Source: Pseudomonadota bacterium
GTDB taxonomy: Bacteria; Myxococcota_A; Polyangia; Polyangiales; JAFGIB01
DNA: 48,893 bases
Assembly (NCBI GenBank): GCA_017881185.1
Contig: JADGRE010000015.1
Span: 1 to 48,893, forward strand
Direction of reading: 5' to 3'
The notes beneath the pieces were generated by a model, which saw only the letters and a list, made by a program, of their open reading frames with translations, ran no database searches and was not told the DNA's origin. The translations under genes and the position numbers were made by a program. Shown here one piece after another: positions 3,650 to 43,946 of this stretch (position 1 is the stretch's first letter; each line of letters opens with the position of its first letter).

Positions 3650-3695
3650 GGGGTTAAGGTGGTGGAGGGTGCTCCCGACGACAGGAGCGTGACCC

Positions 3696-21261: not shown

Positions 21262-22128
21262 TCAGCGACCGACCAGCTCGCGGTACGCTTGCATCAGCCG
21301 CAGCGTGACCCGACCTGGCTTGCCGTCGCCCACCTGGGCGTCGTCGACGCGCACGACGGGCATGATCTCGCGCACCGAACTGGTGATGAACACCTCGTCG
21401 GCCTGCGTGAGCTCATCGGGAAACAAACGGCGAATGCTCAGCGGGATACCCGCACGTTCGGCCAGCTCGATCACTGTCTGGCGCGTGATGCCCGCCAAGA
21501 TGCCCGCCTCTAACGGCGGCGTGAGCAGCTGGCCGCGACGCACCGCGAAGACGTTGCTGGTGGCGCCTTCGGCGACCTGGCCGCTGCCATCGACCACGAT
21601 GGCCTCTGCGCAGCCGCGCTGCTTCACCTCGTGCAACGCCAAGAGGCTCGCAAGGTAGTTGCTGGCTTTCGCTCCCGCGGCTGCAGTTCCATCGACCGTG
21701 CGCCCGACCCGCACCAGACCTACCGCGATGCCTTGCGCGTAGATGGTGGCCGCCGGCAGGTGCAGGGGCAGCGCGAACACCAGGGTGCTCGGTTCGTGGG
21801 CGTCGGCGATGTCGAGGCCGAGCGAGCCCACGCCGCGTGTCACCATCACACGCAGGTAGCATTCCGGCAGGCCGGAGGCGGCGATGGTGCGATGCAGGTC
21901 GCGCGACCAGCTCTCGAGGCTCGAGGTCACGGGGATCAACAAGCGCTCGCAGGAGCCCTGCAAGCGCTGCAGGTGCTCACGCTCGCGAAACGGCTCGCCA
22001 GCGTAGGTTCGCATCACCTCGAACGCCGAATCGCCGTAGAGGAACCCGCGGTCGAACACCGAGATCTTCGCCTCGGCGGCCGGACATAAGTCCCCATTGA
22101 TGCAGACATGACCTTCGGAAGCACGCAC
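21262..22128 (-). CDS. Class IV PLP-dependent aminotransferase (IlvE/Dat/PabC group)
   Basis: The start is a GTG (MRASEGHVCINGDLCPAAEA) 8 nt past the stop of the TPR gene, giving 288 residues. Relatives begin with an xxNGxxxPAxxA motif, seen here. Signature parts are ISVFDRGFLYGDSAFEVMRTY near 22-42, the Schiff-base Lys in AKASNYLASLL (K154), EGATSNVFAVRRGQLLTPP near 185 and ITRQTVIELAERAGI near 210. Class IV enzymes act as branched-chain or D-amino acid aminotransferases or as aminodeoxychorismate lyases. The sequence alone does not choose among them. The tight junction suggests cotranscription with the giant TPR gene. Confidence 0.9.
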   Translation of the reverse strand: MRASEGHVCINGDLCPAAEAKISVFDRGFLYGDSAFEVMRTYAGEPFREREHLQRLQGSCERLLIPVTSSLESWSRDLHRTIAASGLPECYLRVMVTRGVGSLGLDIADAHEPSTLVFALPLHLPAATIYAQGIAVGLVRVGRTVDGTAAAGAKASNYLASLLALHEVKQRGCAEAIVVDGSGQVAEGATSNVFAVRRGQLLTPPLEAGILAGITRQTVIELAERAGIPLSIRRLFPDELTQADEVFITSSVREIMPVVRVDDAQVGDGKPGRVTLRLMQAYRELVGR

Positions 22129-22136
22129 GCTGGGCC

Positions 22137-25100
22137 TCAAAGCTGTTCGAGCAGAGCCTTGGCCGCGGGATGCTGGCCCGCCTCCGAGATGGCGCGCTCC
22201 AACATGGCCTTGGCCTTGGGCTTGTCGTTTTGCTTGGCGGAGATCTCGCCAAGATGGAAGTACACATCGGCCTTCTGAATGCCAACGTCGGCGCCCAGCT
22301 TCTGCAACAAGAGCGCGCGATAGGTTTTCTGCGCGCGGTCTAGATCGCCGCGCCCGAGGCACAGCCGTGCGAGATCGCGCAGCACCGGCACGCTGGTGAG
22401 ATCGATCTTGAACGCGGCGTCGTAGTGCTTGAGCGCTTCGTCCTCTTGGCCGCCCGACTCGTAGGCCTGGCCCAGGCGGTGCTCGTAGATGGCGACTTCC
22501 TTGGCGCGGCGGCCGCCGTACGAGGCGATGATCTTCTCGAGCACGGGTACGGCGTCGGTCTGGCGCTGGGCTGCGATGTACAGGTCGCACAGCGCCAGCA
22601 GGGTGGCCCGGTCGTCGGGTACGAGCGCGACGGCGCGTTCCAGGTACGCGACTGCACTGGCAGGATCCTTCAGCTTGTCGGCGTAGAGGCTCGCAATGCG
22701 ATTCCACAACGCCACCTGCGCGGGCGCGTCGGCGGCAGCTTCGGCCTCGCGGACGAGCAGCTGCGCGAGCTTGTCCCAGGCGCCGGTCGCTTCGTGGTGC
22801 GCCTTCAGCTTGTGCACGGTCTGCGCGCGGCTCGGATCGAGCGTGAGCGCATGCGTCAGGGCGGCCTCGACCGTGGCGGGATCGGAGAGCTTGCCGGCGG
22901 CGAGCTCAGCGAGTGCGTACGCCGTGTCGATGGCTTCGGCGGGTGGTTGCAACTGCATCAGCGTCTGCATCAGCTGTGCAGCTTCGGCCAGACGGCCCGC
23001 GGCTTGATGCAGGCGAATGAGGCCCTCGACCGCGCCGCGTTCTTGCGGCGCCAGCGCATGCATGCGGCTGAGCGCCGACAGCGCCTGCTCGGGATCGTTC
23101 AGGCTCTCTTCGGCCACGGCGCACAGCGCCCACAGGCGGCTGATCGCCAGCTGCGTATCGCCTGCGGTTTGCGCGCGCGCGGCGCGCTCCAGCAAGAACG
23201 CGGCGAGCTCCGCGTGATGCGCGTTGTCGCGGTAGAGGCGTTCGAGCTCGGCCACTGCCTGCGGATGATCGGGCTGCTCGCGGAGAATCTCGACGAGCTG
23301 TGCGATGGCAAGGTCGGGTTGACGCAGCTGCTGCTCGGCCAAGCGCGCGAGCTTGATGCGCACCTGCAGGCGCTCGTCGCTGCTGCCGCCGCGCTGCAAG
23401 CGCTGCTCGAGCGCAGCACGCAGCTCGTCCCACCGGCCGAGGCTCTGGAGTAAGTCTTCGAGCGCAGCACGCGCCGCGACCTCGTCAGGCGCGTTTTCCA
23501 GCAACGCACGGTAGCTCGCGAGCGCCGCCTCGCGGTCCTGCAGCGCGTCGGCTTGCGCCTGCGCAATGCGGTAGCGCAGCCCCGTGCGGCGCGCGAGCTC
23601 GCTCGGGCCTTCCGGCAGCGCGGTGAGCAAACGCGTCAGCAGCGCCACCATGTCGCCTGCGCGGCCCTGAGCCGCCCGGATCTCTGCGAGCGCATTCAGC
23701 GCTTCGGCGTCGTGCGCATCGGCTGCCAACACCGCGTCGAAGCAGCGGGCAGCAATGTCCACCGACCCGAGCTCGCTCGCCAAACGACCGGCTTCCATCA
23801 AGTGCTCACGCCGACGCGTCGACTCCGGCTCGGCCTCGGCCATCGCACGCAACACCTCGACCAGCGCCGGCTTGTCGTCGCGCGCGCGCACGATCTCGGT
23901 CACGCGCTCGTGGACCGCAAGCGCCGTCGGCTCGACCGCCAACACTGCACGCAGGCAGCGCTCCTCACCCTGCAGGTCGCCCAGATGATCGCGGTACCAG
24001 CCGGCGCAACGCTGCGCGGCCTCGCGCTTGTTCGCACCCTCGAGCGCGCCGCTGGCGATCAAGCCTTCGGACAAGCCGGAGAGGTCTTGCCAAGCGTCGG
24101 CCGCCTTGGCCAAGTGTTCGAGCTCGTCGAGCAGACCGGCGTCCCGGCAGTCGAGCTCGTAGGCGCGGCGCAAGCAACCCAGGGCGCGGCGTGGCTCGGA
24201 CAGCTCCTGCTCCCAGAGCACGGCAGCTTCGCGCAACAGGCGAACCTTCTCGCTGTCCATGGGCGCGAGGCGGATCTTGATCTCGTAGAGACCGACGACC
24301 TTCTCGAGCGCACCCGCGTCGCGGTAACAGCGCTCGAGCACCTCGAGCACATCACGCGCGAGGTCGTCGCGCTGACCCAGGCGCTCCATGCCGGCGAGCG
24401 CGCGCGCATCGGTGCCGTCGTTGTCGAGCACTTCTTGGTACGCGACGAACGCGCCGCGACCGTCGTTGAACTGCTGGTCGCGGAGCGCACCGAGACGAAT
24501 CAGCAACTCTGCCCGCTCCGAAGGCGCGCTGAGCGCCGCGATGCGGCGTTCCAACACCTCGACAAGCTGCTCGTGCTGCTTCGTCTTGTCGTAGAGGGCA
24601 TCGAGTGCGAGCAGGGTCTCGGGCGCGTCGTCGTCGCGCTCCGACGCGTGCACGTACGCGCTGATAGCCAGCGTGTCGTCGTGCATCTGGTGCTCGGCGA
24701 TGCGCCCGGCGCGCCGGTACAGCGCCGCCGACTCACTCGGCTCCGACATGCTCTGCGCACGCTCCATGAACACGCTCGCGAGCTTCGGCCATGTGCCGAG
24801 CAACACCGCGAGCCGCTCGAGCTCGTCCTGCACCTCTAGGTCGGCCGGCTCGTCCGCCAGCGCCCGGGTCAAGGCTGCGAACGCATCGGCCGGTACTTTG
24901 CGACCGTTTTCGTGGATCTCCGCCAGGCGCACCAACTCGGCGCGTCGTTCGGACGGGTCGAGGATGCTCTCCACACGACGCTCGATCAGCTGCACGAGAT
25001 CGTCCCAGCGCGCTTGGTCGCGCAACAGCGGCTCCACGATCTCCGCCGCCCGCGCGCGATGCTCTTCCTTGACGGTGAGCGCCATCAGCGCCTGCACCGC

Positions 25101-28100
25101 TTCGTTGCAGCGCGGATCGTCTTCCAGCGCCTGCCGATAGCACTCGATGGCTTCGGCCAGATCGTTCAGCTCGCTCTGCAGCACGCGTCCGGAGTGGCAG
25201 CGCAAGCGCACGCGTTCCTCGGTGCTGGCCGTGAGACTGGCCTGCGTGGCGAGGTTATCGAGCAAGTCTTGCCACATGCCCTGGCGTTCGTAGAGCGCGG
25301 CCAGCCGCGCGATCGCGACGGCGTTCTGAGGCTCGTCATCGAGCACGCGGCGGTAGGCTTCGATGGCATCTTCGTAGCGATGCAGCTGCTCTTCGGCCAC
25401 GCCACCCAAGCGCACGCCCAGCTCGGCGCGCGTGGCGGGGTCCTGCGCGAGCTCGATGCGCCGCGAGAGAATCGCTGACAGCTCGGCACCCTGCCCGCCC
25501 GCCGCATACAGGCGGTCGAGCGCTTCGAGCGCCTGCTCGTCGGTCTCGAGCTCCTCGAGCGCCCGCTTGTACGCTGCGATGGCCGCATCGCGATCGCCAA
25601 CGAGGTCATCGAGCACCGAACCCATGCGTCGCAGCACGTCGGCGCGCTCCTCCGAGCTGAACGCCGACTTCACCTTGCGCTCGAGCACCGCGACGAGGCC
25701 GCGCCAATCACCCACCATGGTGAGCAGCGACTCCAGAGCATCGAGTGTGCTCGGGTCGTCGGCGTCGATGGCCAGCAGCTGCTCGTACGCCTGAATCGCG
25801 GCGCGTGGATCGCCGAGCTTCTCGTCGTGGACACGCGCGATGGTCGTCAACAGCTGCGCCTTCACCGCGTCGTCCTGCGCCACGAGCAAAGCGCCTTCGT
25901 ACGCGGCAATGTGCTCGTCCCAGGCATCGCGCCGGGCCGCGAGTCGATCCACGTGCGCGCGCGTGCTGTCGTTGTCGGGCTCGCGCTTGAAGGCGCGCGC
26001 GTAGGCATGGAATGCCAGGCGCAGATCGTTACCGCGCCGCTCGTGCAACTGGCCGACCTCGGACAACAGGCGCACAGCTTCGGCCGGGTCCTGCAGCAGC
26101 GACAGGCGCGCCTCGTAGATGGCGATCAGCTTCTTCCACTGATCCAGGTGCTGGTAGACCGGCTCCAGAATCTCGGTGACGCGCAGCGTGTGCGCCTCGC
26201 GCTGCACGAGCTGTTCGAGCGCCGCGATGGAAGGCGCGTGCCCGGGATCCAGCTGCAGTGCCTCTTCGAAGGCCTCGATGGCGCCGGTCTCGTCGCCCAG
26301 GCGCGTCGACAAGAGCTCGCCAAGCCGGAACTTGAGCGCGACTTGCTCGCTCTTGCCCGAGCTGTGCTCCATGCGACGACGCAGGTGCTCCGCGAGACTC
26401 GCGTAGTCTTCCGATTGTCCGAGCATGCCCTCGACACCGGAGATGGCCTCCGCGTTGGTCGGCTCCAGCTCGAGTATCTCGCGATAGCTCTCGATCGCGG
26501 CTTTGCGGTCGGAGAGCTCGGTGGCGTACAAGCGCGCGCTCTTGTGTAGGAGCGCGACACGCTGCGCATCGCTGGCTGCGGCCTCGGCCTGCTTCTTGTA
26601 GAGCACGAGCAGCGCCGCGTGGTTGGCGCTGCGCTGGTAGGCAGCTTCGATGGCCGAGAACGCCACCGCATCCTGCGAGTCGAACTCTAACGCTTTGTTG
26701 TAGAACTCGGCGGCCTTCACCGCGTTGACGACGCGCTCGTCGTAGAGCGAACCCACGTAGCGCGCGAGCTTGGCGGTGATCTCGTCGTTCGCCGCCTCGG
26801 GCAGCGCTTCGCCCAGGATCTTGGCGAGCCGACTCCACTGCCCGCCGACCTTCGCCAGGCGCGTGAGGGTCTCCCACTGCTCCTCGTCGCGCGGGTCTTC
26901 GCGGAACAGGCGCGCGTACACTTCCATGGTCTCGTCGAAGTCTTCGAGCTGTTCCTCGTAGATGCGCCCCAGGCGCAAGAGCAAGCGCTTGCGCTCTTCG
27001 AGATCGAGCTCGCCATCGACGCGCGCGCGCAGTGCCGCCGTCAGCTTCGCCCACTCCATGCGGGCCAGGTAGCCGGGCTCGAGCAACTCGGCGGCCGTGG
27101 TGCGGTACTCGCCGTGCTCGTTCATGATCGATTCGAGCAACGCGATGGAATCTGGGTGGTTGGGGTTGGCCGTGATGGCCTCGCGCAGATGTTCGAGCGC
27201 TGCCTGCGTGTCGGACAGGTGCTGGCGACAGTTACGCGCCAGTTGGAAGCGCAGCTCCACGGCATCGCCGACCCGCCGTTCCAGCTGCTGCTCGTACATG
27301 CTCGACAGATCGGCCCAGCGATGCGTGCGCTGGTACAGCCGCTGCAACGAGTCGTAGGCCGCCTTGTCGGGCGCATCGGCCACGAGGTCTTCGAGCGCGG
27401 CGATGGCCTTGTCGGCGTCGTCCAGGCCGCGTTCGTAGACGTCGGCCTGCCGCGACAGGAGCTGCGCGCGCTGCGCAGGGTTGCTCGTGAGCTCGGTCTT
27501 GCGCTTGAGCACTTCGATCAACGCCGCGTGATCGCCGACTTCTTCGTCGAGCGCGCACAGGGCATCGAGCGCGGGCAGGTCGTCGGGCTGCTCCTCGAGT
27601 ACCTTGCGAAAGCTGCTGCGTGCGAGCGAAGTATCGGCGAGCTTCTCGCGCGCGACCTCGGCGACCTTACGGTAGGCGCGCACCTTCTCGTCGACGTCGA
27701 CAATCTCGGGTGCGATCTCCTGCAAGCACGCGACGTACTCCGCGTAGCGGCCGGTCATCTCGGCCATGCGGGTGTACTCGGCCAAGAGCTGCGGCAAGCT
27801 CTCGTGGGCGCGGCCCGCACGCACGGCGCGACCGAGGTAGCCCATGGCCTGGGCCGCGTCGTTCTGGCCGTGCTCCGCAATCTCGGCGGCGCGACGCAAC
27901 GCGCCGAGCTGCTCCAGTTCGTCGTCGGTTTCGGCAAGCAGCTCGAACACTGCCAGCAGGCGGTCGTAGCTGCCCATGGCTTCGTAGCGCGGCGCAGCGA
28001 CGCGCGCAGCGTCACGCCGGAACGCGAAGCTCACGTCACGCATCAGCGTCTCGAGCGCGGCCAAGGTGAGCGTGTGCTGGGGGTCGTCCTCGAGCACGCC

Positions 28101-31100
28101 TTCGTAGACCGAGATGGCGCGTTCTGGCTCGCCCTGCTTGTCACGCAGCAGCTCGGCCATTCGGTAACGCAAGTTGGCGCGCTCTTGCGACGGCTCGAGC
28201 AGCGACTCTGCCGCTTCGAGCGTGGCCAGCAGATCGGCGTAGCGGCCGGACGACTCGTACAACCGCCCGAGCGCGGCGAGCGTGTCGCGATCGTTGCCGA
28301 ACGCGCTGAGCACCTCGTTGTAGGCCTCGATGGCGTGCTCGACGTCGCCGCGCTTCTCTTCGTGCACGACCGCCACGCGCCGCAGCAGCTCGCGCCGTGC
28401 GACGTCGTCGCTTGCCCCTTGTGCGCGCCTGCCAACCACCTCGACCAGCGGCAACCACTGCTGCGTGCGCTCGTACAGACGCTCGAGGGCGAGCAACGCG
28501 TCGTCGTCACCTGCATCGAGCTCCAGGCGCTTCTGTTGGGTGGCGATCGCACCCTGCATGTCGTCCAGCTTGTGCTCGTAGAGCTCCGCCAGGCGCAAGA
28601 GCAGCTGCTCGCGCGTACGGCCATCGAGCTCGAGCTCGACCTGGCGCTCCAGGTCTTTCGCGAGCCTCACATGATCGCCCGCGTGAATGTGAATGCGCTC
28701 GAGTGCCTTCGCGACCTCGAGCACCACGTCGTCGCGCCCGCCTGCGCTCGTCGCGAGTGTCAGCACGCGGTCGTAGACGCGTTCGGCCGCGACGCGATCA
28801 TCGAGGTACTGGTCGAGCAGCTGTGCGAGCTCCAGCAAGAGTTCGATCTGCACGTCGGGGTCTTGCACGGCCTCGGCCGCATGTTCGAGCACCTGCGCAC
28901 GCCTACGCCGATAGGCGTCGCGCGTGGCCGCAACGCGCGCCAGCGCTTCGCGCACGATCTTGTCGCTCGGGTCGGACTCCACGGCGCGCGCGTACGCAAC
29001 GAACGCTGCCTCCGGATCGCGCAGGCGGTGCTCGTGCAGCTCGCCCACACGCAACAGCAACGCCGCTTGCGCGTCGCGGCTCGGGCGGTCGACGACCTGA
29101 ATCTCCAGCACGCGCGCGAGATCGGCGTACGCGCCTTGGCTCTCGTACACGGGCTCCAAGATGGCGGCCACGCGCTGGCGCTGGCTCTCCACCGCGAGCA
29201 AACGCGCGAGCGCAGCCTGCGCGCGCAAGTGGTGCGGCTGGTTGGTGAGCACGCCCTCGTACTGGTCGACTGCGGGGCCCGGCTCCGAGAGCTTGGTCTC
29301 GTAGAGCTCGCCCAAGCGGTACATCAGGTCGACCTGGTCGTAGCCCTCGGCCTGGTCGAGGTTCGCGCGCAGCAGGTTCGACAAGTCGCGGTAGCGCTCG
29401 GTGCGCTCGTAGAGCTTCTCCAGCGTGCGGCGCGACGGACCGTGATCGGGCGCAAGCTCGAGCACCGCCTGATAGGCCTCGATGGCCATGTCGGGCTTGT
29501 CGAGGATCTCCTCGAACAGAAAGCAGACCTGCAGCAGCAAGTCCAAGCGTTGCGTGGTGTCGACGGTCTCGTCGATGCGCTTGCGGTAGAGCGCCTGCAA
29601 GTCTTCCCAGCGCTCTTGGTTGGTATAGATCTCTTTGAGCGCCGTGAACGCGACGTCGGCGAGTGGATCGTGCACGAGCACGCGCTTGTGGAACGGCTCG
29701 GCCTCCTGAGGCTCGCTCAACACTTCGTCGTAGATGCTTGCCGCGCGAATCGCGAGCGTGGCCTTGTCGGTGTCGGACAACGCCGGGGACTCGATCGCTC
29801 GCGCGTAGGCGTTCGCGAGCGCGCGGTGCTGGCCGGCCGTCTCGGCCGCGGCGGCCAGACGGTCCCAAAGCGTTTCGTCGTCGGGCTGCTCGAGGAACGC
29901 TTGCTCGAGCGCGCTGTAGGCACCGAGCGCATCGCCTAGCTTGCCGCCCCTGATTTCCGCCATGCGCAGGCGCAGGCGCTTGAGCTCCACCTCGTCGCGC
30001 ACGGTCTGCAAGCGCTGCGCGACCACCTTCGCCAGACGGTCGAAACGACCGGCCCGCTCGTACGACTTCTCGAGCGTGACCAGGATGCCACCGCGCAGCG
30101 CACTCTCGTCAGCTGCCAACTTCTCGAGTGCAGCGAGGCTCGGCCCGTGCTCGGGATCGAGCTCGAGCACTTCGGTGAACACGGTGGCGGCGCCGCCAGG
30201 TTGCGCCAGCTTGTCGAGCAAGAGCGCCCCGAGGCGCGCGCCCAGATCGATGCGCGCCGCGCGCTCTTCCTCGACCGTGCGTCGCGTCTCCAGCACCTCG
30301 GCGAGCTCTTCGTGCCGGCCTGCGGCGAGCGCCAGCCGATCGAGCGCCGACCACACGTCGCGATTGGTCGGCTCCAGCTTCGACAGTGCCCGATAGCGCT
30401 CGGCAGCGGCCTTCGGATCGTCGAGCTTGTTCTCTTCGATCGTGGCCAGCTCATGCAGAATCTCTGCACGCGCGCTAGCGTCTCGCGTCTGCGCGAGCTT
30501 GTGCAAGAGCAGCTTGCGAATGTCGTCGGCGCGTTGCTCGGCACGGTAGATACGATCGAGCGCTGCGAGCGCTGCAGCGTCGTCCGGCACCTTGGCCAAC
30601 ACCAACTGCCACTCACTGGCGGCGAGCTCGGCACGACCCAGACGTTCACCCGCGAGGGTCGCCACGCGGCGATGTAAGAGCAGCGCTTCGTCGGCCGGGG
30701 CACGCTCGGCGCGCGCGCGGTATTGCTCGACCACGCGGTCGAGCGCTTGCGCGAGCTCGCCTGCGGCTTCCAAGCTTTCGCGCATGCCCGTGGCGTCCGG
30801 TGCCAGCTGGTACGCGGCAAGCGCATAACCGAACGCGCTCTCACCGTCGCGCAGCTTCTCGTGCGAGAGCGTGCGCAAGCGCGCCAGCAAGGCGAGCTTC
30901 TCGTCCTTGGCGCTGTCGGCTAGGCCTTGGCGCACCACCTCGAGCACCGCGCACAGCCGAGACCACTTCTCTTCTTCTTCGTAGAGCGGCGCGAGCGCTC
31001 GCGCCGCTCGCACGTTCTGCGGGTCCACGCTGAGCACGCGCTCGTAGCTGCGCTGCGCCCGCGCAGGCTCGCCGATCTTGTCTTCGAACACGCGTGCGGC

Positions 31101-33422
31101 ACGCAGGCTGAGGTCGACCTTCACTTCGCGCGCTTGCGCGGCGTCGGCCTCGCCCGAGAGCACGTCGACCAGCGCTTCGAAGTCGCCCGCGCGTTCGTAG
31201 AGCGCTTCGAGCGCATCCCACTCGCCGAACGAGAGCAAGCTGTCACGCAAGCTACGCAGCGCCCGCCCCTGCTTGGGATCGAGCTCCAAGATGCGCCGCC
31301 AGGCGCGGCTAGCGGCCTCCGGGTCGGCGCTGCGCTCGGAGTGCAAGCTGCCAAGCTTGAGCAAGACGCGGATGCGCGCCTCGTCGCTGGTGTCGCGCGC
31401 CACTTGCAGCTCGAGTACCTGCGCGAGCGTGGCCCAGTCTTTTTCGCGCTCGGCGAGCTTCTCGAGCGAGTCGAGCGCCAGCCCGCCGTGCTGCGGGTCG
31501 CCCGACACCTCGCGCCACAGCTCGACGGCGTCGTGGTAGCGCTGCAGCCGGTCGGCCGCGAGCTCCGCCATCATTACGGTGAGCTTGGCGCGCACGGTGG
31601 GATCGCTCGCTACGATGCGCTCTTTCTTGAGCACCTCGAACAGCTGCTTCCAAGCGCGCTTCTTTTCGTAGATGTCGCGCAAGCGCGAGAGCGCTTCGCG
31701 GTTGTTGGGCTCGAGCTCGAGCACCTTCTCGAGCGGCGACGCCGCCTGGTTGTAGTTCGAGAAGTGCTCCACCCACAGCTGCGCCACCTGCAAATAGGTC
31801 GCGATGCGGGCAGCGCGGTCGGACAAGAGCTCGGCGTCCGCCGACAGCACGTTGATCAAGTCGTTCCAGCGGCCGAGCTCGCGGTACTTGTCGGCCAACG
31901 CTCCGAGCGTCGCGCGGTCCGAGGGCGAAAGGCGCAAGATGGCGTTGTAGGCATTGATGAGCATGCCATCGAGCCGCAGGTGGTCGCGGTACACCTGCGC
32001 CAGCTCGCGCAAGACTTCCACCTTGCGCGGGGCATCCGCGTCGGGAATGGCGTCGACTTGGGCCTTGAGCAGGTCGACGAGCGCGTTCCACTTCTCCGAC
32101 TTCGCGTAGAGCGCCTTGAGCACGTCGTTGGCGTCGGTGTTCAGCGGATCGATGCGCTGCACGGTCTTCCAGGCTTCGATGGCGCGGTCGGGCGTGCCGG
32201 GCAGCGCCTGTGCCAGACGCGCGGCCTCCGCAGCGAGCTCCACCTTGCGCGGAGGCGCGAGCGACACGCGCTGCGCATCGGACAACACACGGATCAGCGG
32301 CTCGAGCTCTCCGCTCTGTCGCGAGTGCTCGCGGTAGAAATCGAGCATCGCCGGGTGCGCCGGGTCGAGCTTACGCAGACGCGCGAAGTACGGCTCGGCT
32401 TCCGCCGCGTGCTTGCGCATGCGCCAGTGCACCATGCCGATCTGCAGCAGGATGCCCTGCTCCACCTCGACCTTCTGCGGCACGCGCAGCGCGTCTTCGT
32501 ACAGGCCGACCAAGTGGTCCCACTGCTCCCCCTCGGTGAAGTGCTCCGAGAGATAGGTCATGGCTTCGGGATTGGTCGGATCGAAGTCCAGCACGCGCTC
32601 GTAGCAGGCAGCCGCGCGGCTCTTCTCGCCTAGCTTGCGCGCAAAGGTGCGCGCGGAGCGCACGTAGCAGTTGACGCGGTCTTGCTTGTCACGTGCGGCT
32701 TCCGCTGTGTCGAGCAGGTGTTGCGCGAGCGCATTCCATTCTTCGCGCTCGCGCAGCGTGTGCTCGTAGAGCATCGCGGCCCGCATGTTCGCCGGATCGA
32801 GCTCGAGCGCCTTCTTGAACAGCTTCTCGGCCTCTTTGCCCTTGCCCTTGCGCTTCCACTCCCACGACAGGCAGGCGGCGCGCAGCAACAGCGAGGTCTT
32901 GAGCGACAGGTCGGAAGCTGACTCGGCTTCTTCCACGAAGCGCTTGGCGAACTTCTTCCAGCTGGCCTCGGCTTGCTCCAGCCGGCGCAGCGCTTCGGTG
33001 ATCTCGGTGTCGTCGCCCTTGATCTCGAGCGCCTTGCCGTAGGCCGCGCGCGCGCCTTCGGGATCGAGCAGCAGCTCGGTGCGCAGGCGCCCAAGCTCCT
33101 TCCACAAGGAAGCGCACAGGGAGTTGTCGTCCTGCACGAGCGGGATCTCGGCCTCCATCAGCCGTGCCACGGTGGACATCTCGCCGCGCAGCTCGTGGCC
33201 CCGGCGCGCCATCTCCATGAGCCGCGCCGGCTCCGGGCCGAGCAGCTCGGTGTCGCCGGAGGCGATGATCCGATTGATTTGGGCCAATGCCTCCCGGTCA
33301 TCCGGGTCGGCCTCGAGCACGCCAAGGTAGTTGCTGAGCTTCAAGCGCCGCGCTGGCTCGCCCTGACCCGCTGGTGTCCCGTTTGCTGCGGGTGCGGCCA
33401 TGTCGGTTCGTGTCTGCGCCAC
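22137..33422 (-). CDS. Giant tetratricopeptide-repeat protein (3,761 aa)
   Basis: The gene spans 11.3 kb with no visible stop or frameshift. Start GTG 33422 has an AGGA site; ATG 33401 is an alternative. There is no signal peptide or membrane helix, so it is probably cytosolic. After about 30 low-complexity residues it consists almost wholly of TPR-like helix pairs. A recurring unit of about 70 residues reads roughly LxxLYxxxxxWxxLxxVLxRR, xxELLxRLAxLxExxL, AIxAYxxVLxxDPxxxxAL, so about 50 such units are present (my estimate). Copies are divergent (for example LEKLYERTERYRDL and LARLLAVESQRQRV), so this is an old array. The last 200 residues are cleaner TPRs (HRLGQAYESGGQEDEALKHY). TPR superhelices bind proteins; partner unknown. 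A large scaffold is the likely role. Confidence 0.9.
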   Translation of the reverse strand: MAQTRTDMAAPAANGTPAGQGEPARRLKLSNYLGVLEADPDDREALAQINRIIASGDTELLGPEPARLMEMARRGHELRGEMSTVARLMEAEIPLVQDDNSLCASLWKELGRLRTELLLDPEGARAAYGKALEIKGDDTEITEALRRLEQAEASWKKFAKRFVEEAESASDLSLKTSLLLRAACLSWEWKRKGKGKEAEKLFKKALELDPANMRAAMLYEHTLREREEWNALAQHLLDTAEAARDKQDRVNCYVRSARTFARKLGEKSRAAACYERVLDFDPTNPEAMTYLSEHFTEGEQWDHLVGLYEDALRVPQKVEVEQGILLQIGMVHWRMRKHAAEAEPYFARLRKLDPAHPAMLDFYREHSRQSGELEPLIRVLSDAQRVSLAPPRKVELAAEAARLAQALPGTPDRAIEAWKTVQRIDPLNTDANDVLKALYAKSEKWNALVDLLKAQVDAIPDADAPRKVEVLRELAQVYRDHLRLDGMLINAYNAILRLSPSDRATLGALADKYRELGRWNDLINVLSADAELLSDRAARIATYLQVAQLWVEHFSNYNQAASPLEKVLELEPNNREALSRLRDIYEKKRAWKQLFEVLKKERIVASDPTVRAKLTVMMAELAADRLQRYHDAVELWREVSGDPQHGGLALDSLEKLAEREKDWATLAQVLELQVARDTSDEARIRVLLKLGSLHSERSADPEAASRAWRRILELDPKQGRALRSLRDSLLSFGEWDALEALYERAGDFEALVDVLSGEADAAQAREVKVDLSLRAARVFEDKIGEPARAQRSYERVLSVDPQNVRAARALAPLYEEEEKWSRLCAVLEVVRQGLADSAKDEKLALLARLRTLSHEKLRDGESAFGYALAAYQLAPDATGMRESLEAAGELAQALDRVVEQYRARAERAPADEALLLHRRVATLAGERLGRAELAASEWQLVLAKVPDDAAALAALDRIYRAEQRADDIRKLLLHKLAQTRDASARAEILHELATIEENKLDDPKAAAERYRALSKLEPTNRDVWSALDRLALAAGRHEELAEVLETRRTVEEERAARIDLGARLGALLLDKLAQPGGAATVFTEVLELDPEHGPSLAALEKLAADESALRGGILVTLEKSYERAGRFDRLAKVVAQRLQTVRDEVELKRLRLRMAEIRGGKLGDALGAYSALEQAFLEQPDDETLWDRLAAAAETAGQHRALANAYARAIESPALSDTDKATLAIRAASIYDEVLSEPQEAEPFHKRVLVHDPLADVAFTALKEIYTNQERWEDLQALYRKRIDETVDTTQRLDLLLQVCFLFEEILDKPDMAIEAYQAVLELAPDHGPSRRTLEKLYERTERYRDLSNLLRANLDQAEGYDQVDLMYRLGELYETKLSEPGPAVDQYEGVLTNQPHHLRAQAALARLLAVESQRQRVAAILEPVYESQGAYADLARVLEIQVVDRPSRDAQAALLLRVGELHEHRLRDPEAAFVAYARAVESDPSDKIVREALARVAATRDAYRRRRAQVLEHAAEAVQDPDVQIELLLELAQLLDQYLDDRVAAERVYDRVLTLATSAGGRDDVVLEVAKALERIHIHAGDHVRLAKDLERQVELELDGRTREQLLLRLAELYEHKLDDMQGAIATQQKRLELDAGDDDALLALERLYERTQQWLPLVEVVGRRAQGASDDVARRELLRRVAVVHEEKRGDVEHAIEAYNEVLSAFGNDRDTLAALGRLYESSGRYADLLATLEAAESLLEPSQERANLRYRMAELLRDKQGEPERAISVYEGVLEDDPQHTLTLAALETLMRDVSFAFRRDAARVAAPRYEAMGSYDRLLAVFELLAETDDELEQLGALRRAAEIAEHGQNDAAQAMGYLGRAVRAGRAHESLPQLLAEYTRMAEMTGRYAEYVACLQEIAPEIVDVDEKVRAYRKVAEVAREKLADTSLARSSFRKVLEEQPDDLPALDALCALDEEVGDHAALIEVLKRKTELTSNPAQRAQLLSRQADVYERGLDDADKAIAALEDLVADAPDKAAYDSLQRLYQRTHRWADLSSMYEQQLERRVGDAVELRFQLARNCRQHLSDTQAALEHLREAITANPNHPDSIALLESIMNEHGEYRTTAAELLEPGYLARMEWAKLTAALRARVDGELDLEERKRLLLRLGRIYEEQLEDFDETMEVYARLFREDPRDEEQWETLTRLAKVGGQWSRLAKILGEALPEAANDEITAKLARYVGSLYDERVVNAVKAAEFYNKALEFDSQDAVAFSAIEAAYQRSANHAALLVLYKKQAEAAASDAQRVALLHKSARLYATELSDRKAAIESYREILELEPTNAEAISGVEGMLGQSEDYASLAEHLRRRMEHSSGKSEQVALKFRLGELLSTRLGDETGAIEAFEEALQLDPGHAPSIAALEQLVQREAHTLRVTEILEPVYQHLDQWKKLIAIYEARLSLLQDPAEAVRLLSEVGQLHERRGNDLRLAFHAYARAFKREPDNDSTRAHVDRLAARRDAWDEHIAAYEGALLVAQDDAVKAQLLTTIARVHDEKLGDPRAAIQAYEQLLAIDADDPSTLDALESLLTMVGDWRGLVAVLERKVKSAFSSEERADVLRRMGSVLDDLVGDRDAAIAAYKRALEELETDEQALEALDRLYAAGGQGAELSAILSRRIELAQDPATRAELGVRLGGVAEEQLHRYEDAIEAYRRVLDDEPQNAVAIARLAALYERQGMWQDLLDNLATQASLTASTEERVRLRCHSGRVLQSELNDLAEAIECYRQALEDDPRCNEAVQALMALTVKEEHRARAAEIVEPLLRDQARWDDLVQLIERRVESILDPSERRAELVRLAEIHENGRKVPADAFAALTRALADEPADLEVQDELERLAVLLGTWPKLASVFMERAQSMSEPSESAALYRRAGRIAEHQMHDDTLAISAYVHASERDDDAPETLLALDALYDKTKQHEQLVEVLERRIAALSAPSERAELLIRLGALRDQQFNDGRGAFVAYQEVLDNDGTDARALAGMERLGQRDDLARDVLEVLERCYRDAGALEKVVGLYEIKIRLAPMDSEKVRLLREAAVLWEQELSEPRRALGCLRRAYELDCRDAGLLDELEHLAKAADAWQDLSGLSEGLIASGALEGANKREAAQRCAGWYRDHLGDLQGEERCLRAVLAVEPTALAVHERVTEIVRARDDKPALVEVLRAMAEAEPESTRRREHLMEAGRLASELGSVDIAARCFDAVLAADAHDAEALNALAEIRAAQGRAGDMVALLTRLLTALPEGPSELARRTGLRYRIAQAQADALQDREAALASYRALLENAPDEVAARAALEDLLQSLGRWDELRAALEQRLQRGGSSDERLQVRIKLARLAEQQLRQPDLAIAQLVEILREQPDHPQAVAELERLYRDNAHHAELAAFLLERAARAQTAGDTQLAISRLWALCAVAEESLNDPEQALSALSRMHALAPQERGAVEGLIRLHQAAGRLAEAAQLMQTLMQLQPPAEAIDTAYALAELAAGKLSDPATVEAALTHALTLDPSRAQTVHKLKAHHEATGAWDKLAQLLVREAEAAADAPAQVALWNRIASLYADKLKDPASAVAYLERAVALVPDDRATLLALCDLYIAAQRQTDAVPVLEKIIASYGGRRAKEVAIYEHRLGQAYESGGQEDEALKHYDAAFKIDLTSVPVLRDLARLCLGRGDLDRAQKTYRALLLQKLGADVGIQKADVYFHLGEISAKQNDKPKAKAMLERAISEAGQHPAAKALLEQL

Positions 33423-33609: not shown

Positions 33610-34335
33610 TCAGAACGTCATCAGTGCGCCCGCCCAACTGAGCGCACCCCACGTCACGATGCCCGAGGCCAAGTGCACCGTGGCCAGCGCTTGCAGCGTC
33701 TTGTAGTTGTTGGCCCGGTCGAGGCCGAGCCAGTTGTTGGCGATGACGACACCGATCAACCCCTGCAGCACCATGCCGCCGAAGTGCACCCAGCGCAGCG
33801 TCTTGTGCAAACGCAAAGTCTTGGCGAACTCGCCCTTGCCCGAGGAGAGGTCGTCCGGGTCCGGCATCATGAACGAGAGCGTGAACGTGCTCGCGTAGAG
33901 CGCCGTGGTCACGCCCGCGCTGATGGCGTGCGCGGTGCGCAGCGATCTACAGCCACCATCACCGCCTATCGCGCTGCCCCGCACGCATGGGTTGTCGGCC
34001 TGGCTGGAGAAGGCGCCGTAGAGGTTGTAGTAGCTCATCACGCCCAGAGCGACCGTGACGGTCATCGCGCCCCAGGTGCTGATACCCAGGATGCGATGGA
34101 TGCCGGCGATTGAGTTGCGACGCCGCGTCTGCGCCAGGTACTCGGCTTGCGACGCGTCGTTCTCGGCACTGGCGTCGGCGCTCGCCTCGCTCGCGGCCGC
34201 CTCACCCGCAGCCAGCTCTGCGACGACGTGTGCCGAAAGATCGAGCACCGCCGGCGTAGTCGAAGCCAACGCGGGTGCCGACAGTGAGAAACCGAAGATC
34301 GGCGTTGCCAACAAAAGCGCAGTCAAGCCACCCAT
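33610..34335 (-). CDS. Four-helix membrane protein, cytochrome b561-like His pattern
   Basis: The start is ATG 34335 (MGGLTALLLATP) with a GGAGGT ribosome site 6 nt before it; the track start is further upstream. A signal-like helix comes first, then an Ala/Ser/Glu-rich linker. Four membrane helices follow, each carrying a His near one end: IHRILGISTWGAMTVTVALG, AHAISAGVTTALYAST, VHFGGMVLQGLIGVVIANNW and VHLASGIVTWGALSW. A further His (LRLHKTLRW) lies before the third. The spacing matches heme b-binding bundles of the b561 type, which carry electrons across a membrane. Heme binding is inference, and no family signature is certain. Confidence 0.65.
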   Translation of the reverse strand: MGGLTALLLATPIFGFSLSAPALASTTPAVLDLSAHVVAELAAGEAAASEASADASAENDASQAEYLAQTRRRNSIAGIHRILGISTWGAMTVTVALGVMSYYNLYGAFSSQADNPCVRGSAIGGDGGCRSLRTAHAISAGVTTALYASTFTLSFMMPDPDDLSSGKGEFAKTLRLHKTLRWVHFGGMVLQGLIGVVIANNWLGLDRANNYKTLQALATVHLASGIVTWGALSWAGALMTF

Positions 34336-34412
34336 GAGAACCTCCACGCACCCCTGCGCCCCGGTGTCGTTAGCAGAGTCCGAGCGTTTTCTACAGCGTC
34401 TCCACAGCATCT

Positions 34413-39041: not shown

Positions 39042-39239
39042 TCAAGCCAGCTCGAAGTGTTTGCAAAACACCACGAGCGCCGTGGGGTCGTCGTAGTGCG
39101 CCTGCCGATGCTCGGTGGTCGGGTAGCCGTGGGCGCAAGTCTCCCGCTGCTCGTCGAAGAGCGCGCAGTGCTCGCAGTTGAAGCGCAGGTTGAAGGCTTC
39201 GCGCTGCTGCCGAAAGCGCTGGTCTTGCAGGATCTTCAC
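39042..39239 (-). CDS. 65-residue four-Cys protein of unknown function
   Basis: The frame starts at GTG overlapping the rpiB stop by 4 nt (GTGA) and reads MKILQDQRFRQQREAFNLRF. A CxxC pair (NCEHC) follows, then a Cys in RETCAHGYPTTEHRQ and a last Cys in VVFCKHFELA. Four cysteines and several His give a probable metal-binding fold, with a zinc or Fe-S site as possibilities. The longer track ORF (to 39473) includes the rpiB region in another frame and is spurious. Coupling to rpiB through overlapping codons suggests coexpression at the end of the fatty acid cluster. Confidence 0.75.
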   Translation of the reverse strand: MKILQDQRFRQQREAFNLRFNCEHCALFDEQRETCAHGYPTTEHRQAHYDDPTALVVFCKHFELA

Positions 39240-39679
39240 GCGTCGATCTTGGCGACGCGGCCCGCGTGACGCCCACCCTCGAAGCTGCCATCGAGAAAGG
39301 TCTTCAAGATGTCCTCGGCAAGACCCGGCCCCACGATGCGGGAACCCAAACACAACACGTTGGCGTCGTTGTGCGTGCGCGCCATGCGCGCTGCATAGGC
39401 CTCGGTGCACACGGCGGCGCGCACACCTTTGTGCCGGTTGGCCGCCATGCTCATGCCCAGGCCCGTGCCACACACCAGCACGCCCAGGCGGTAGCGACCC
39501 TGCACGACGCCCGTCGCCACGGCATGCGCGTAGTCCGGATAATCAGTCGACGCCTCGCTGTGGGTGCCCAGGTCCTCGAACGCCACGCCCCAGCGGGCCA
39601 GCGCCAGCTTCAACGACTCCTTGAGCGCGAAGCCCGCATGGTCGGACGCAATCGCGATGGGCTTGGTGGCTTCAGTCAT
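39236..39679 (-). CDS. rpiB: Ribose-5-phosphate isomerase B
   Basis: The 147-residue protein has the RpiB/LacAB fold. Phosphate-binding ASDHAGFALKESLK lies near the start, DLGTHSEASTDYPDYAHAVA near 37-56, the catalytic Cys70 in VLVCGTGLGMSMAANRHKGV, and HNDANVLCLGSRIVG near 108. It interconverts ribose 5-phosphate and ribulose 5-phosphate. Its ATG overlaps the last 8 nt of fabF, and its stop overlaps the small four-Cys gene, so all three are likely cotranscribed. rpiB next to fabF is an arrangement known in Myxococcota. Confidence 0.94.
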   Translation of the reverse strand: MTEATKPIAIASDHAGFALKESLKLALARWGVAFEDLGTHSEASTDYPDYAHAVATGVVQGRYRLGVLVCGTGLGMSMAANRHKGVRAAVCTEAYAARMARTHNDANVLCLGSRIVGPGLAEDILKTFLDGSFEGGRHAGRVAKIDA

Positions 39680-40925
39680 GTCGCTTGAGCACGAGGGTGA
39701 CGTTGGTGCCGCCGAAGCCGAACGAGTTCGACAGCGCGATGTTGATCTTCTTCTGACGCGCCGTGTGCGGCACGAGATCGAAGCCAGCGGCTTGCTCGTC
39801 AGGGTTGTCGAGGTTGATGGTCGGTGGGATCACGCTGTCGTGAAGCGCCAGCGCGGCAATCACGGCCTCGAGCCCACCCGCAGCGCCGAGCAAGTGCCCG
39901 GTCATCGACTTCGTGCTCGACACCATCAGCCCGGCGCCGTGACCGCGGGCGTGCGCGCCAAACACCTTCTCGATGGCCACCAGCTCGGTGATGTCGCCGA
40001 CCTCGGTCGAGGTGCCGTGCGCGTTCAGGTAATCCACAGCCGTGGGCGGAAGCTTGGCGTCTTTGAGCGCGAACTTCATCGCACGCTGCGCGCCTTCGCC
40101 CTCGGGCGCAGGTTGCGTCAAGTGGAACGCGTCGGCCGACGCGCCGTAACCGATGAGCTCGGCGTAGATCTTGGCGCCGCGCTTGATCGCGCGCTCGCGC
40201 TCTTCGAGAATCATCAGGCCGCAACCTTCGGCCATGACGAAGCCGTCGCGATCCTTGTCGTAGGGTCGGCTGGCCTTCGTCGGCTCGTGGTTGCGCTTGG
40301 ACAGCGCGCGCATCGCGTTGAAGCCGCCCACGCCGAGACCCGTGATGGTGGCTTCGGAGCCGCCCGCCACCGCCATCTCGAGATCGCCGCGCTGGATCCA
40401 GCGGTAGGCTTCGCCGATGGCGTGCGCGCCCGACGAGCACGCGCTGGTGGTGGTGTAGCTCACGCCCTTGAAGCCGAAACGCATCGACACCCCACCGGGC
40501 GCGAGGTTCGCGATGGTGGCGGGGATGAAGTACGGCGTCATGCGCCGCGGGCCCTTCTCGAACAGCACCTTGGCCTGCGCCTCGATCAGCGACAGACCGC
40601 ACATGCCGACGCCCACGAAGGTGCCAGTCAGCTCCTTCACCTCATCGGGCGCATCGGCGACACCGGCATCACGCACGGCCAGCTCGCTCGCGGCCAGCGC
40701 CAGGTGAATGAAGCGGTCGCCTTCACGGACGCGCTTGCGCTCGATGTACAGCTCCGGGTCGAAACCCTTGCACTCGCCGGCAATCTGGGTCGCGAATTCT
40801 TTGGCGTCGAACAGCGTGATCGGACCGATCCCGCTCTTGCCTTCGCGCAGTGCGTTCCAGGTGGACGCCGTGTCGTTGCCGCACGGGGTCACAGCCCCCA
40901 CGCCTGTAATGACTACCCTTCGCAT
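39672..40925 (-). CDS. fabF: 3-oxoacyl-[ACP] synthase II
   Basis: I use the ATG giving MRRVVITGVGAVTPCG, with GGTGA as a modest ribosome site; a GTG three codons upstream is an alternative. The 417-residue thiolase-fold enzyme has Cys163 as nucleophile (TTTSACSSGAHAIGEA), and the two catalytic His in NAHGTSTEVGD and STKSMTGHLLGAAGG. It extends acyl-ACP with malonyl-ACP. It ends with the usual ALSNSFGFGGTNVTLVL. It follows acpP by 83 nt and overlaps rpiB. Confidence 0.95.
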   Translation of the reverse strand: MRRVVITGVGAVTPCGNDTASTWNALREGKSGIGPITLFDAKEFATQIAGECKGFDPELYIERKRVREGDRFIHLALAASELAVRDAGVADAPDEVKELTGTFVGVGMCGLSLIEAQAKVLFEKGPRRMTPYFIPATIANLAPGGVSMRFGFKGVSYTTTSACSSGAHAIGEAYRWIQRGDLEMAVAGGSEATITGLGVGGFNAMRALSKRNHEPTKASRPYDKDRDGFVMAEGCGLMILEERERAIKRGAKIYAELIGYGASADAFHLTQPAPEGEGAQRAMKFALKDAKLPPTAVDYLNAHGTSTEVGDITELVAIEKVFGAHARGHGAGLMVSSTKSMTGHLLGAAGGLEAVIAALALHDSVIPPTINLDNPDEQAAGFDLVPHTARQKKINIALSNSFGFGGTNVTLVLKRHD

Positions 40926-41008
40926 GCGAATCACCCAGCAGTGAAACTGGGGCGACCCCGTTCGGGCCGCCCCACCACTTGCAGGTCCACTCTAGCGCGG
41001 ATTGGGCG

Positions 41009-41242
41009 CTATTTGGCGTGGGCCTGGATGTATGTGATCGCGTCACCGACGGTACCGATCTTCTCGGTGTCCTCGTCGGGGATGTCGATCTCGAACTGTT
41101 CCTCGAACGCCAGAACCAGCTCGACGATGGCGAGCGAGTCAGCACCAAGATCTTCGATGAACTGCGCCTCTTCCTTCACTTCGGCGATGTCCACGTCCAA
41201 CTGCTGAGCGACGATTTCCTTGACCTTCTGCGCGATATCCAT
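41009..41242 (-). CDS. acpP: Acyl carrier protein
   Basis: This is a 77-residue acidic protein with the phosphopantetheine serine at S36 ([20 protein letters not shown]) and the helix pattern of AcpP. A GGAGG ribosome site sits 7 nt before the ATG, the strongest in this cluster, fitting the high level of ACP. It lies between fabG and fabF, as in most fab clusters. Confidence 0.96.
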
Positions 41243-41285
41243 CCGACCCCTCCAACGGGTGCAAGATTGGTAGACTACTCACTCG

Positions 41286-42032
41286 TTACACGTACATTCC
41301 GCCGTTGACTCGAATGACTTGGCCCGTGATGTACGAAGCCTCGTCCGAGCACAAGAACAGCACGGCTGCTGCAACATCATCCGGCTGACCGATCCGCGCG
41401 AGCGGGATCTGCTCGATCATGTATTTCTTGGCGTCCTGCGGCAGGTTCTTGGTCATGTCGGTGTCGATGAAACCGGGGGCCACTGCGTTCACGGTAACGC
41501 CGCGCGAGGCGTACTCCCGGGCGAGCGTCTTCGTCAAGCCGATCAAGGCTGCCTTCGAGGCCGAGTAGACCGCCTGTCCGGGGTTGCCGAGCTCGGCAAC
41601 CACGCTGGCCAGGTTCACCACCCGGCCCGTGCGGGCACGCATCATCAGGCGAATCGCCGAGCGCGCGCAATTGATTGCGCCCGTTACGTTCACGGCAAAG
41701 GTTTTCTGTATGTCCTCATCCGACACGCGCAACAGCAGGTTGTCGCGGGCGATGCCGGCGTTGTTCACGAGAATGTCGAGCCGCCCGAGGCGCTTGGCCA
41801 GCTCGCGGATACCTTCGTCGACGGCTTCGGCCTGGGTCACGTCGAGCTTCATCAGCTCGCCCTTGCCCCCGGCTGCGGACACCGCTGCGAGGGTCTCTTG
41901 GCCCACTTCGGCCTGCAGCACGTCGGCTGCGATCACGTGCGCGCCGGCCTTGGCCAGCGTGACGCACATCGAACGCCCGAGGCCACGGTAGCCACCGGTC
42001 ACCACTGCCACTTTGCCGTCGAGTCGGAACAT
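41286..42032 (-). CDS. fabG: 3-oxoacyl-[ACP] reductase
   Basis: The 248-residue short-chain dehydrogenase has cofactor motif TGGYRGLG (residues 12-19; most FabG have TGASRGIG), NNAGIARDNLL, and catalytic S143, Y156, K160 (VYSASKAALIGLTKTLARE). The C-terminus has the FabG-like VNAVAPGFIDTDMTKNLP and YITGQVIRVNGGMYV. It reduces 3-oxoacyl-ACP with NADPH. Position in the cluster supports the assignment. Confidence 0.94.
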   Translation of the reverse strand: MFRLDGKVAVVTGGYRGLGRSMCVTLAKAGAHVIAADVLQAEVGQETLAAVSAAGGKGELMKLDVTQAEAVDEGIRELAKRLGRLDILVNNAGIARDNLLLRVSDEDIQKTFAVNVTGAINCARSAIRLMMRARTGRVVNLASVVAELGNPGQAVYSASKAALIGLTKTLAREYASRGVTVNAVAPGFIDTDMTKNLPQDAKKYMIEQIPLARIGQPDDVAAAVLFLCSDEASYITGQVIRVNGGMYV

Positions 42033-42119
42033 GGTGTGTCCTTATCACGCCGAATCACGCCGAGAGATTGAGACCGCTCGGCACCCCCGAGAGCCGATGG
42101 CTGCTCGGAAAATACACCG

Positions 42120-43133
42120 TCACCAACGCACCAGCGCGCTGCCCCACGCGATGCCACCGCCGAGCGCGCAGAACACGAGCGACTGCCCGGGCTTCACCTT
42201 GCCGGCACGCACCGCTTGATCGAGCGCGATCGGAACCGAAGCGCTCGAGGTGTTCGCGGTCTGGTCGATGTTGATGAAGAAGTGTTCCTTGGCGATGCCG
42301 GTGCGCGACTGCACCGCATCCAAGATGCGCACGTTCGCTTGATGCGGAATCACCCAGTCGACATCGCCCGGCGCCATCTTGTTGGCCGCGAGCGCCGTCT
42401 GCACCGAGGCCGTCAGCGCCTTGACCGCATACTTGAACACGTCCATGCCGACCATCTGCACGAGGTGCAACTTCTTGTCGAGCACCTCTTGGCTGAACGG
42501 CAGACGCGAACCACCGCCGGGGATCTGCAGCGCTTCGATCATCGAGCCATCCGAGTAGATGTGCGTCGACAAGATGCCGCGGCCATCGCCGGTGGCTGGG
42601 CCGACGACCACTGCGCCAGCGCCGTCGCCGAAGAGCACGCAGGTGCCGCGATCGGTCCAGTCGATGATGCGGCTGAGCAGCTCGACGCCGATCACCAAGA
42701 CGTGCTTGGCCGTGCCGGCACGCACGAATGCATCCGCGATGCTCAAGCCGTAGATGAAACCCGCGCATGCAGCTGACAGATCGAACGCGGGGCAGTCCTT
42801 GCGCGTGCCCAACGCAACCAAATTGCGCTGCACGAACACCGCCGCCGAGGGCATGGGCACGTCGGGGCTGATGGTGCCCACGATGATCAGATCGATATCG
42901 GCCGCAGAGATCCCCGCCGACTGCAGTGCGGCCTTCGCAGCATGCGTCGCCATGTCGCTGGTCGCCTCTTCGGGCGCAGCGATGTGGCGCTGACGGATGC
43001 CCGTGCGGCTGGCGATCCAGGCATCGGAGGTGTCCATCACCTTCTCGAGGTCCTGATTGGTGAGGACCTTCTTCGGAAGGTAATGGCCGGTGCCGAGAAT
43101 CCGCGAGCCGGGCTGTGCGCTCGGACCTGTCAC
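42120..43133 (-). CDS. fabH: 3-oxoacyl-[ACP] synthase III
   Basis: The track start at 43256 runs back into rpmF. I use GTG 43133 (MTGPSAQPGSRILGTGHYLP), giving 337 residues. The nucleophile Cys123 lies in FDLSAACAGFIYGLSIADAF, the His in VDWVIPHQANVRILDAV and the Asn in INIDQTANTSSASVPIAL. It condenses acetyl-CoA or a branched primer with malonyl-ACP to start fatty acid synthesis. The gene begins 17 nt after the rpmF stop; in many bacteria plsX lies in that position but it is absent here. fabD is also missing between fabH and fabG. Confidence 0.94.
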   Translation of the reverse strand: MTGPSAQPGSRILGTGHYLPKKVLTNQDLEKVMDTSDAWIASRTGIRQRHIAAPEEATSDMATHAAKAALQSAGISAADIDLIIVGTISPDVPMPSAAVFVQRNLVALGTRKDCPAFDLSAACAGFIYGLSIADAFVRAGTAKHVLVIGVELLSRIIDWTDRGTCVLFGDGAGAVVVGPATGDGRGILSTHIYSDGSMIEALQIPGGGSRLPFSQEVLDKKLHLVQMVGMDVFKYAVKALTASVQTALAANKMAPGDVDWVIPHQANVRILDAVQSRTGIAKEHFFINIDQTANTSSASVPIALDQAVRAGKVKPGQSLVFCALGGGIAWGSALVRW

Positions 43134-43150
43134 TGGGTGAGCACCCGGTC

Positions 43151-43345
43151 TTATGCCTGGGCCTCGCCGCCTTGATCGACGACCTTGCGCCCCTTGTAAT
43201 GACCACACGCTCCGCACACGCGGTGCGGCAAGGTCATCTCGCCGCACTTCGGGCACGGGATGAAGTTGGGCGCGGTCACTTTGTCGTGGTTGGCCCTGCG
43301 CTTGTCGCGCTGGGACCGGCTCTTTCTACGCTTGGGAACGGCCAC
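43151..43345 (-). CDS. rpmF: 50S ribosomal protein L32
   Basis: The protein has 64 residues from a GTG start with an AAGGAG ribosome site 8 nt upstream. It begins AVPKRRKSRSQRDKRRANH, has a Cys4 zinc ribbon (PCPKCGEM and RVCGACGHYKG), and ends in an Asp/Gln-rich tail. The long track frame that fuses it with upstream DNA (to 43765) is a wrong-frame read. It is encoded 4 nt after yceD, the conserved order in bacteria. Confidence 0.95.
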   Translation of the reverse strand: MAVPKRRKSRSQRDKRRANHDKVTAPNFIPCPKCGEMTLPHRVCGACGHYKGRKVVDQGGEAQA

Positions 43346-43349
43346 GGTG

Positions 43350-43946
43350 TCACTCCTTCTTGTGGGGCTTGTTGGGCGGGACTTTGTCTCGCAGTCTTTG
43401 TAGCGGCGCAAGACGCGGATCCACGCCCGCGCCGTCGAGATGCCGATTTTCTTTGGAACCGAAGACTTCCGGGGGCGGCCGCAGGTGCTCGGGCACTGCG
43501 ATGCCCTGGCAATCGGGCTTGCAGAGCGGCTGCATCGGGCACTCGAGCACGAGCTGCTCACGCACCAAGCCGTCGAGCACCAGATCGTGGCCGGAGAATT
43601 CCTCGCGCTGGAAGTCTTCTTCCTCGAGCTCCTCTTTGGCTTTGGCTGGCGTGTGCTTGTCGGACTTGCGACAGAAGAGCGTCGCAAACGCCACGTGCAC
43701 GGGCACCTTGGCGTCGCCCAGGCAGCGGCCGCACTCGGCCAGCAAGTCGGCGTCGACCCGGCCATTCACCAGATACTCCGCGCCATTCTTCTGCGCGTGG
43801 ACCTGCACGACCGGCGGAATGGCCGCCGGGTCAGCGCGCAGGCCGGCGTCGGCGAGCTCGGTCTGCAGCCACGCCGAGCTGAGCGGAAAGGTGTAGTCCT
43901 TCCCGTCTTCGTCGATGTCGTGGATCTGAAGCACCAGCGCAGCCAT
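43350..43946 (-). CDS. YceD/DUF177 family protein
   Basis: The 198-residue protein has the YceD pattern in the middle: VNGRVDADLLAECGRCLGDAKVPVHVAFATLF, then an acidic insert (KAKEELEEEDFQREEFSGHD), LVLDGLVREQLVLECPMQPLCKPDCQG and a downstream Pro-rich tail. Family members precede rpmF and are linked to 23S rRNA/ribosome biogenesis. The Cys of ECGRC and of CPMQPLC could form a metal site. It is the first gene after the predicted promoter and probably leads the whole cluster. Confidence 0.9.
   Translation of the reverse strand: MAALVLQIHDIDEDGKDYTFPLSSAWLQTELADAGLRADPAAIPPVVQVHAQKNGAEYLVNGRVDADLLAECGRCLGDAKVPVHVAFATLFCRKSDKHTPAKAKEELEEEDFQREEFSGHDLVLDGLVREQLVLECPMQPLCKPDCQGIAVPEHLRPPPEVFGSKENRHLDGAGVDPRLAPLQRLRDKVPPNKPHKKE

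Follow-up and report, generated by a model that had tools for sequence, protein, structure and literature searches.

A single open frame in the window, by which the whole analysed stretch of 48,893 nt of DNA is meant, encodes a giant TPR-only protein, here called W, which is one intact chain of conserved length and unit order, with conservation concentrated near its ends and a kinship to GltI (AgmK). Comparison of the two sequences identifies W and GltI as paralogues along the repeat array, a relationship that goes beyond generic TPR similarity. The combined reading, in which W is a second GltI-type giant cytosolic scaffold or tether with a probable motor partner, is given about an even chance of being right. 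The features on which the argument relies, and the other large TPR proteins of the same genome, are collected in Table 1.

Table 1. Features of the window and further large TPR proteins encoded on other contigs of the genome
Feature	Position in window	Strand	Basis or remark
Giant TPR-only protein W (3,761 aa; 51 units of ~72 residues; GltI/AgmK paralogue)	22137..33422	-	
N-terminal conservation hot spot of W, residues ~289-860	30843..32555	-	Column conservation
C-terminal conservation hot spot of W, residues ~3600-3745	22188..22622	-	Column conservation; matches GltI ~2651-2812, unique register
Fold-type IV (class IV) PLP aminotransferase	21262..22128	-	PF01063 E 1e-59, Lys154
Predicted membrane protein of 266 aa, several conserved His, no Pfam match	33610..34410	-	187 bp upstream of W
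Large TPR protein on C217			3,379 aa
Large TPR protein on C351			2,612 aa
Large TPR protein on C20			2,053 aa
Large TPR protein on C213			At least 2,011 aa, a lower bound since the frame is cut by the contig end
Large TPR protein on C223			1,833 aa

Reading frame, repeat array and predicted fold

The source of W is a draft genome of 5.99 Mb in 410 contigs (94% complete), in which W lies on contig C337; the only close matches that carry a name are Sandaracinaceae and other myxobacterial MAGs. The frame starts with GTG, remains open across 3,761 codons and displays a strong coding bias (GC3 minus GC2 = 0.43). Residues 1-23 are predicted to be disordered, and the start may therefore alternatively be the ATG at codon 8. 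Autocorrelation of the sequence gives a period of 72 residues with a harmonic at 144, and an iterated unit HMM delimits 51 units, which cover 3,447 of the 3,761 residues and have a mean identity among them of 27%. The first-pass annotation, which had described an all-TPR protein of about 50 units of about 70 residues read in one open frame, is thus confirmed by the frame itself, by Pfam and by the coding bias. W is matched in Pfam exclusively by repeat models of the TPR/ARM type (TPR_8 at 8e-51, and others), and it belongs to the TPR superfamily by these profiles, by its 51 units and by the all-helical AlphaFold models. No catalytic or other non-repeat Pfam domain was found in W, and no segment of transmembrane-grade hydrophobicity is present, the Kyte-Doolittle maximum over 19 residues being 1.18; both results agree with what had been read from the sequence at first. 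The top NCBIfam match, the PEP-CTERM TPR lipoprotein PrsT, was rejected as an identity for W, its repeat-driven score of 223.1 bits falling below the cut-off of 312.2.

Modelling of W segments, which had been proposed in the first-pass annotation, was carried out with AlphaFold on residues 1-860 and 3050-3761 using orthologue alignments, and a helical solenoid is predicted at both ends of the chain. The N-terminal segment is continuous beyond its disordered start (mean pLDDT 89.1), and the C-terminal one is composed of 39 helices of ~18 residues each (mean pLDDT 93.4), from which it follows that each 72-residue unit corresponds to two helical hairpins, with ~100 hairpins in total. Standard TPR geometry has a rise of ~8 Angstrom per repeat, by which W would fold as one superhelix ~80 nm long.

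Distribution, length and conservation

W is present in about 53 of the 57 genomes of the order. A search of these 57 with the N-terminal 700 residues of W gave a match in 50, and a C-terminal query of 700 residues added G028, in which the C-terminal part of W sits beside the aminotransferase, so that an apparent loss in this genome is refuted. An apparent loss in G038 is accounted for by the contig, which stops at the locus ~9 bp past the match to the upstream flank. Among the 57 genomes searched, W is truly absent from G007, G016, G021, G024 and G034.

Complete orthologues measure 3,734-3,927 aa and are read in a single collinear frame, which is also intact in the one-contig genomes G017, G120 and G155. 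In close orthologues from three genomes the unit-to-unit best matches fall at the same position for 51/51, 51/51 and 49/51 units, and since unit i best-matches unit i, the order of the array appears to be old and stable. Neither an assembly collapse or frameshift nor a gene split into parts in relatives, the two outcomes that the first-pass annotation had named against a single chain, was seen. That the long frame could be an assembly or frameshift artefact is suggested by the 410-contig state of the draft; this explanation, whose probability is negligible, was rejected given the strong coding bias and the near-equal collinear frames in dozens of independent genomes, the three one-contig genomes included.

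When 190 genomes of the phylum were searched with the N-terminal query, 78 gave a match at E 1e-40, part of these being matches to the GltI paralogue rather than to W. Column conservation is highest at residues 3601-3745, and the GltI-specific match covers this C-terminal peak together with part of the N-terminal peak. As judged from these sequences, W is ancient and length-conserved.

GltI and other giant TPR proteins

At least five further large TPR proteins (1,833-3,379 aa) are encoded in the genome that carries W, so that it has six or more such frames when W is counted, and much of the phylum has GltI-type giants of 3.4-4.2 thousand residues. The claim that a single-chain scaffold of this size is rare therefore does not hold. 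The C217 giant is encoded downstream of GltE-, GltD-, GltF- and GltG-like genes, the last of which codes for FHA and TonB_C domains, and of a TPR lipoprotein gene; the same glt-like order accompanies giants of 4,021-4,216 aa in G063, G120 and G155. By this gene context the C217 protein is evidently GltI/AgmK, the gliding scaffold. GltI of Myxococcus xanthus (AgmK, MXAN_4863) is a TPR-only protein of 4,132 aa without a signal peptide, and gltI is at times multicopy (PMC3169522). It has been described as a large scaffold that connects the proton-driven motor AglRQS with the MreB track (2026 review, PMC13104615), and its placement is disputed, with cytosolic, transmembrane and wall-threading arrangements having been put forward (PMC3169522, PMC9120999, PMC12288465). 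Since gltI may be multicopy and this lineage has many giant TPR proteins, W is not a new kind of protein. A literature search on Myxococcota proteins of this giant TPR type gave no result; in the literature searched there was no distinct, length-conserved W lineage extending across much of the phylum in a gene context of its own, and no description of W's own role.

The register shared by W and GltI was assessed by profile comparison over 72-residue windows, against 60 permutations of the GltI unit order. Residues 500-1760 of W align to GltI at offsets of 455-468 (20 windows) and the C-terminus at offsets of 940-950 (8 windows), the end of W corresponding to about residue 2812 of the 3379 of GltI. 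One offset bin contains 16 of the 103 windows, compared with a maximum of 6 in the 60 permuted controls, and generic TPR similarity is thereby ruled out as the source of the match. Between its two GltI-matched parts W has ~7 extra units, and the C217 GltI runs ~570 aa past its match to the W C-terminus. A tree computed from 77 giants groups the 26 GltI proteins together with a support of 1.0 and leaves W outside. Taken together, the register match and the clade that excludes W indicate that W is related to GltI yet distinct from it. W was accordingly rejected as a GltI orthologue, being outside both this clade and the gltD-E-F-G cluster: its neighbours in the window are unrelated to those genes, and in the closed genome G017 it lies ~200 kb from GltI.

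GltI is present in each of the order's 57 genomes and in 93 of the 190 of the phylum, and every W-bearing genome of the 190-genome sample also has a GltI-type giant. This confinement of W to GltI-bearing genomes and the paralogy of the arrays could mean that the gliding machinery has W as an additional subunit, acting in the same complexes as GltI; however, W lies outside the glt cluster and is missing from some GltI-bearing genomes, and a second giant TPR protein is not listed for the M. xanthus machinery, though gltI is sometimes multicopy (PMC3169522), so that such a role is regarded as very unlikely. As five genomes of the order keep GltI without W, the latter stands outside any obligate core machine.

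Other large TPR proteins were observed to share parts with these giants. On C351 (L124 1572-11946) the giant is followed by a gene for a zinc-ribbon and GYF protein that resembles GltJ/AgmX, and close relatives have giants of 2,615-2,670 aa that are related to W. The protein on C20 (L126 1437-7598) has a counterpart of the final 1,190 residues of GltI, up to the C-terminus, and frames of ~1,800 aa and ~750 aa that carry the C-terminal part of GltI are found in many genomes, a recurrence that marks this part as a mobile module. The frame on C213 (L127 2-6037) has a long run of ET dipeptides at the contig edge; over the final 738 residues it has 40% identity to the C223 protein, making these two giants related paralogues.

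The aminotransferase and other neighbours

As the first-pass annotation had stated, a class IV aminotransferase follows W at 8 nt; its GTG start is counted from the W TGA stop, which a TGAGG motif overlaps. The catalytic Lys154 is conserved in the adjacent homologues, and the enzyme scores below every NCBIfam equivalog cut-off. W and the aminotransferase are paired in ~35 genomes of the order, in families f1, f3, f4, f5, f6, f10 and part of f12, and because the adjacency spans these families the pair is old. In relatives with the two genes directly adjacent, the gaps are -35 to +90 nt. The tight spacing, the recurrence of the pair and the lack of a close aminotransferase in 4 of the 5 W-less genomes would be expected if the two formed a functional unit in which W scaffolds the enzyme or its pathway. 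Against this, family f8 keeps both genes unlinked, three f12 genomes (G019, G029 and G054) have W without a close aminotransferase and G016 retains the enzyme but not W; outside the order the genes that flank W differ and the aminotransferase is replaced, and no aminotransferase accompanies GltI, which is built alike. A functional unit of this kind is thus improbable. As the pair is unlinked or incomplete in some genomes and the enzyme is replaced outside the order, the aminotransferase does not define a W complex, and it is probably an enzyme that is co-transcribed with W and not one of its structural partners.

The 266-aa membrane protein upstream of W, possibly a b-type cytochrome, has homologues in the vicinity of W in 13 genomes, mostly as the gene immediately upstream. 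At positions 39236-43946 of the window there is a fatty-acid cluster (yceD, fabH, fabG, acyl carrier protein and fabF, then rpiB) that is kept upstream in relatives.

A different neighbourhood is found in the lineage labelled Bradymonadales-like in this analysis on the basis of genome size and gene content, where W lies ~2-16 kb from tolB in 7 of the 8 W-bearing genomes. In G120 (L136 1729-16830) W is divergent to a tolQ-tolR-tolA-tolB operon, 129 bp apart; on the other side of W in this genome are a low-molecular-weight phosphatase gene, ybgC and hemW. Phylum-wide, the proximity to tol genes is limited to this one lineage, none being seen in G063 or in the other families checked. The arrangement may point to a link of W with a motor of the TolQR/AglRQS type. 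A narrower proposal, tentative and rather unlikely, is that W does for a second TolQR-type envelope motor what GltI does for AglRQS, as a giant tether in the cytosol dedicated to that motor, which would most likely be Tol-Pal itself; if true, matched giant TPR arms would connect more than one proton-driven envelope motor of myxobacteria with the inside of the cell.

Proposed role of W

A TPR solenoid without other domains is most naturally read as a scaffold or assembly factor, which would agree with the paralogue GltI. The large-complex scaffold suggested in the first-pass annotation is partly supported, in so far as it fits these two; the conserved aminotransferase neighbour is dispensable. 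Conserved ends and a repetitive middle resemble the pattern of a two-ended tether. By analogy with GltI, W may act as a long multivalent tether, in which docking sites near each end would hold different partners at a set separation, the middle serving as a spacer or as an extra groove; the most likely partners would be an inner-membrane motor complex of the TolQR/AglRQS type, or proteins bound to it, and, at the opposite end, a cytoplasmic element. The position of W outside the glt locus, the restriction of the tol proximity to one lineage, the genomes that keep GltI without W and the disputed placement of GltI count against this reading.

It could also be that W is a general cytosolic TPR adaptor unconnected with envelope motors, of an RNA- or protein-processing, chaperone or modification complex, and that its kinship to GltI reflects common descent only. 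The nearest solved folds to the W models are the scaffold TPR superhelices of Ski3, IFT139/TTC21B, Ctr9 and OGT; eukaryotic analogues for an adaptor would be Ski3, Ctr9, the NatA auxiliary subunit and the OGT TPR domain, and the neighbourhoods of W vary between lineages and consist mostly of housekeeping genes. However, these fold matches (TM-scores of 0.11-0.26, normalised to the query) are expected for any long TPR superhelix and carry little functional weight, and the closest sequence relative of W found in this analysis is GltI; the adaptor is a possible reading, though an unlikely one.

For the reading of W as a GltI-type scaffold or tether, several consequences can be drawn. GltI is not one of a kind, since much of the phylum also has W, an ancient and separate lineage of this build with near-constant length and the best conservation at its ends. 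W offers a testable model of a fixed-length, two-ended tether, with the end regions as candidate docking sites. Comparison of W with GltI could reveal the contribution of giant TPR arms to proton-driven envelope motors, and a non-gliding paralogue may help to decide whether GltI is cytosolic, lies in the membrane or threads the wall.

Comparison with known systems

The enzyme next to W belongs to the same class IV superfamily as BCAT, D-amino-acid transaminase and aminodeoxychorismate lyase, with the catalytic Lys present, but differs from these named types in that it reaches none of the NCBIfam equivalog cut-offs. W itself has the long TPR superhelix fold of Ski3/TTC37, IFT139/TTC21B, Ctr9 and the OGT TPR domain, which, however, are 2-4 times shorter and have no full-length collinear kinship with it. 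A closer likeness is seen in the C351 giant, whose residues 42-1503 match 2153-3719, in the C-terminal part, of the G017 W; this protein is shorter (2,612 aa), continues for ~1,100 residues past the shared part and is paired with a GltJ-like gene. GltI/AgmK of M. xanthus shares with W the giant TPR-only chain, the lack of a signal peptide or membrane helix and the register match at both ends, whereas it is encoded in the gltD-E-F-G cluster and W is encoded elsewhere and falls in a separate clade.
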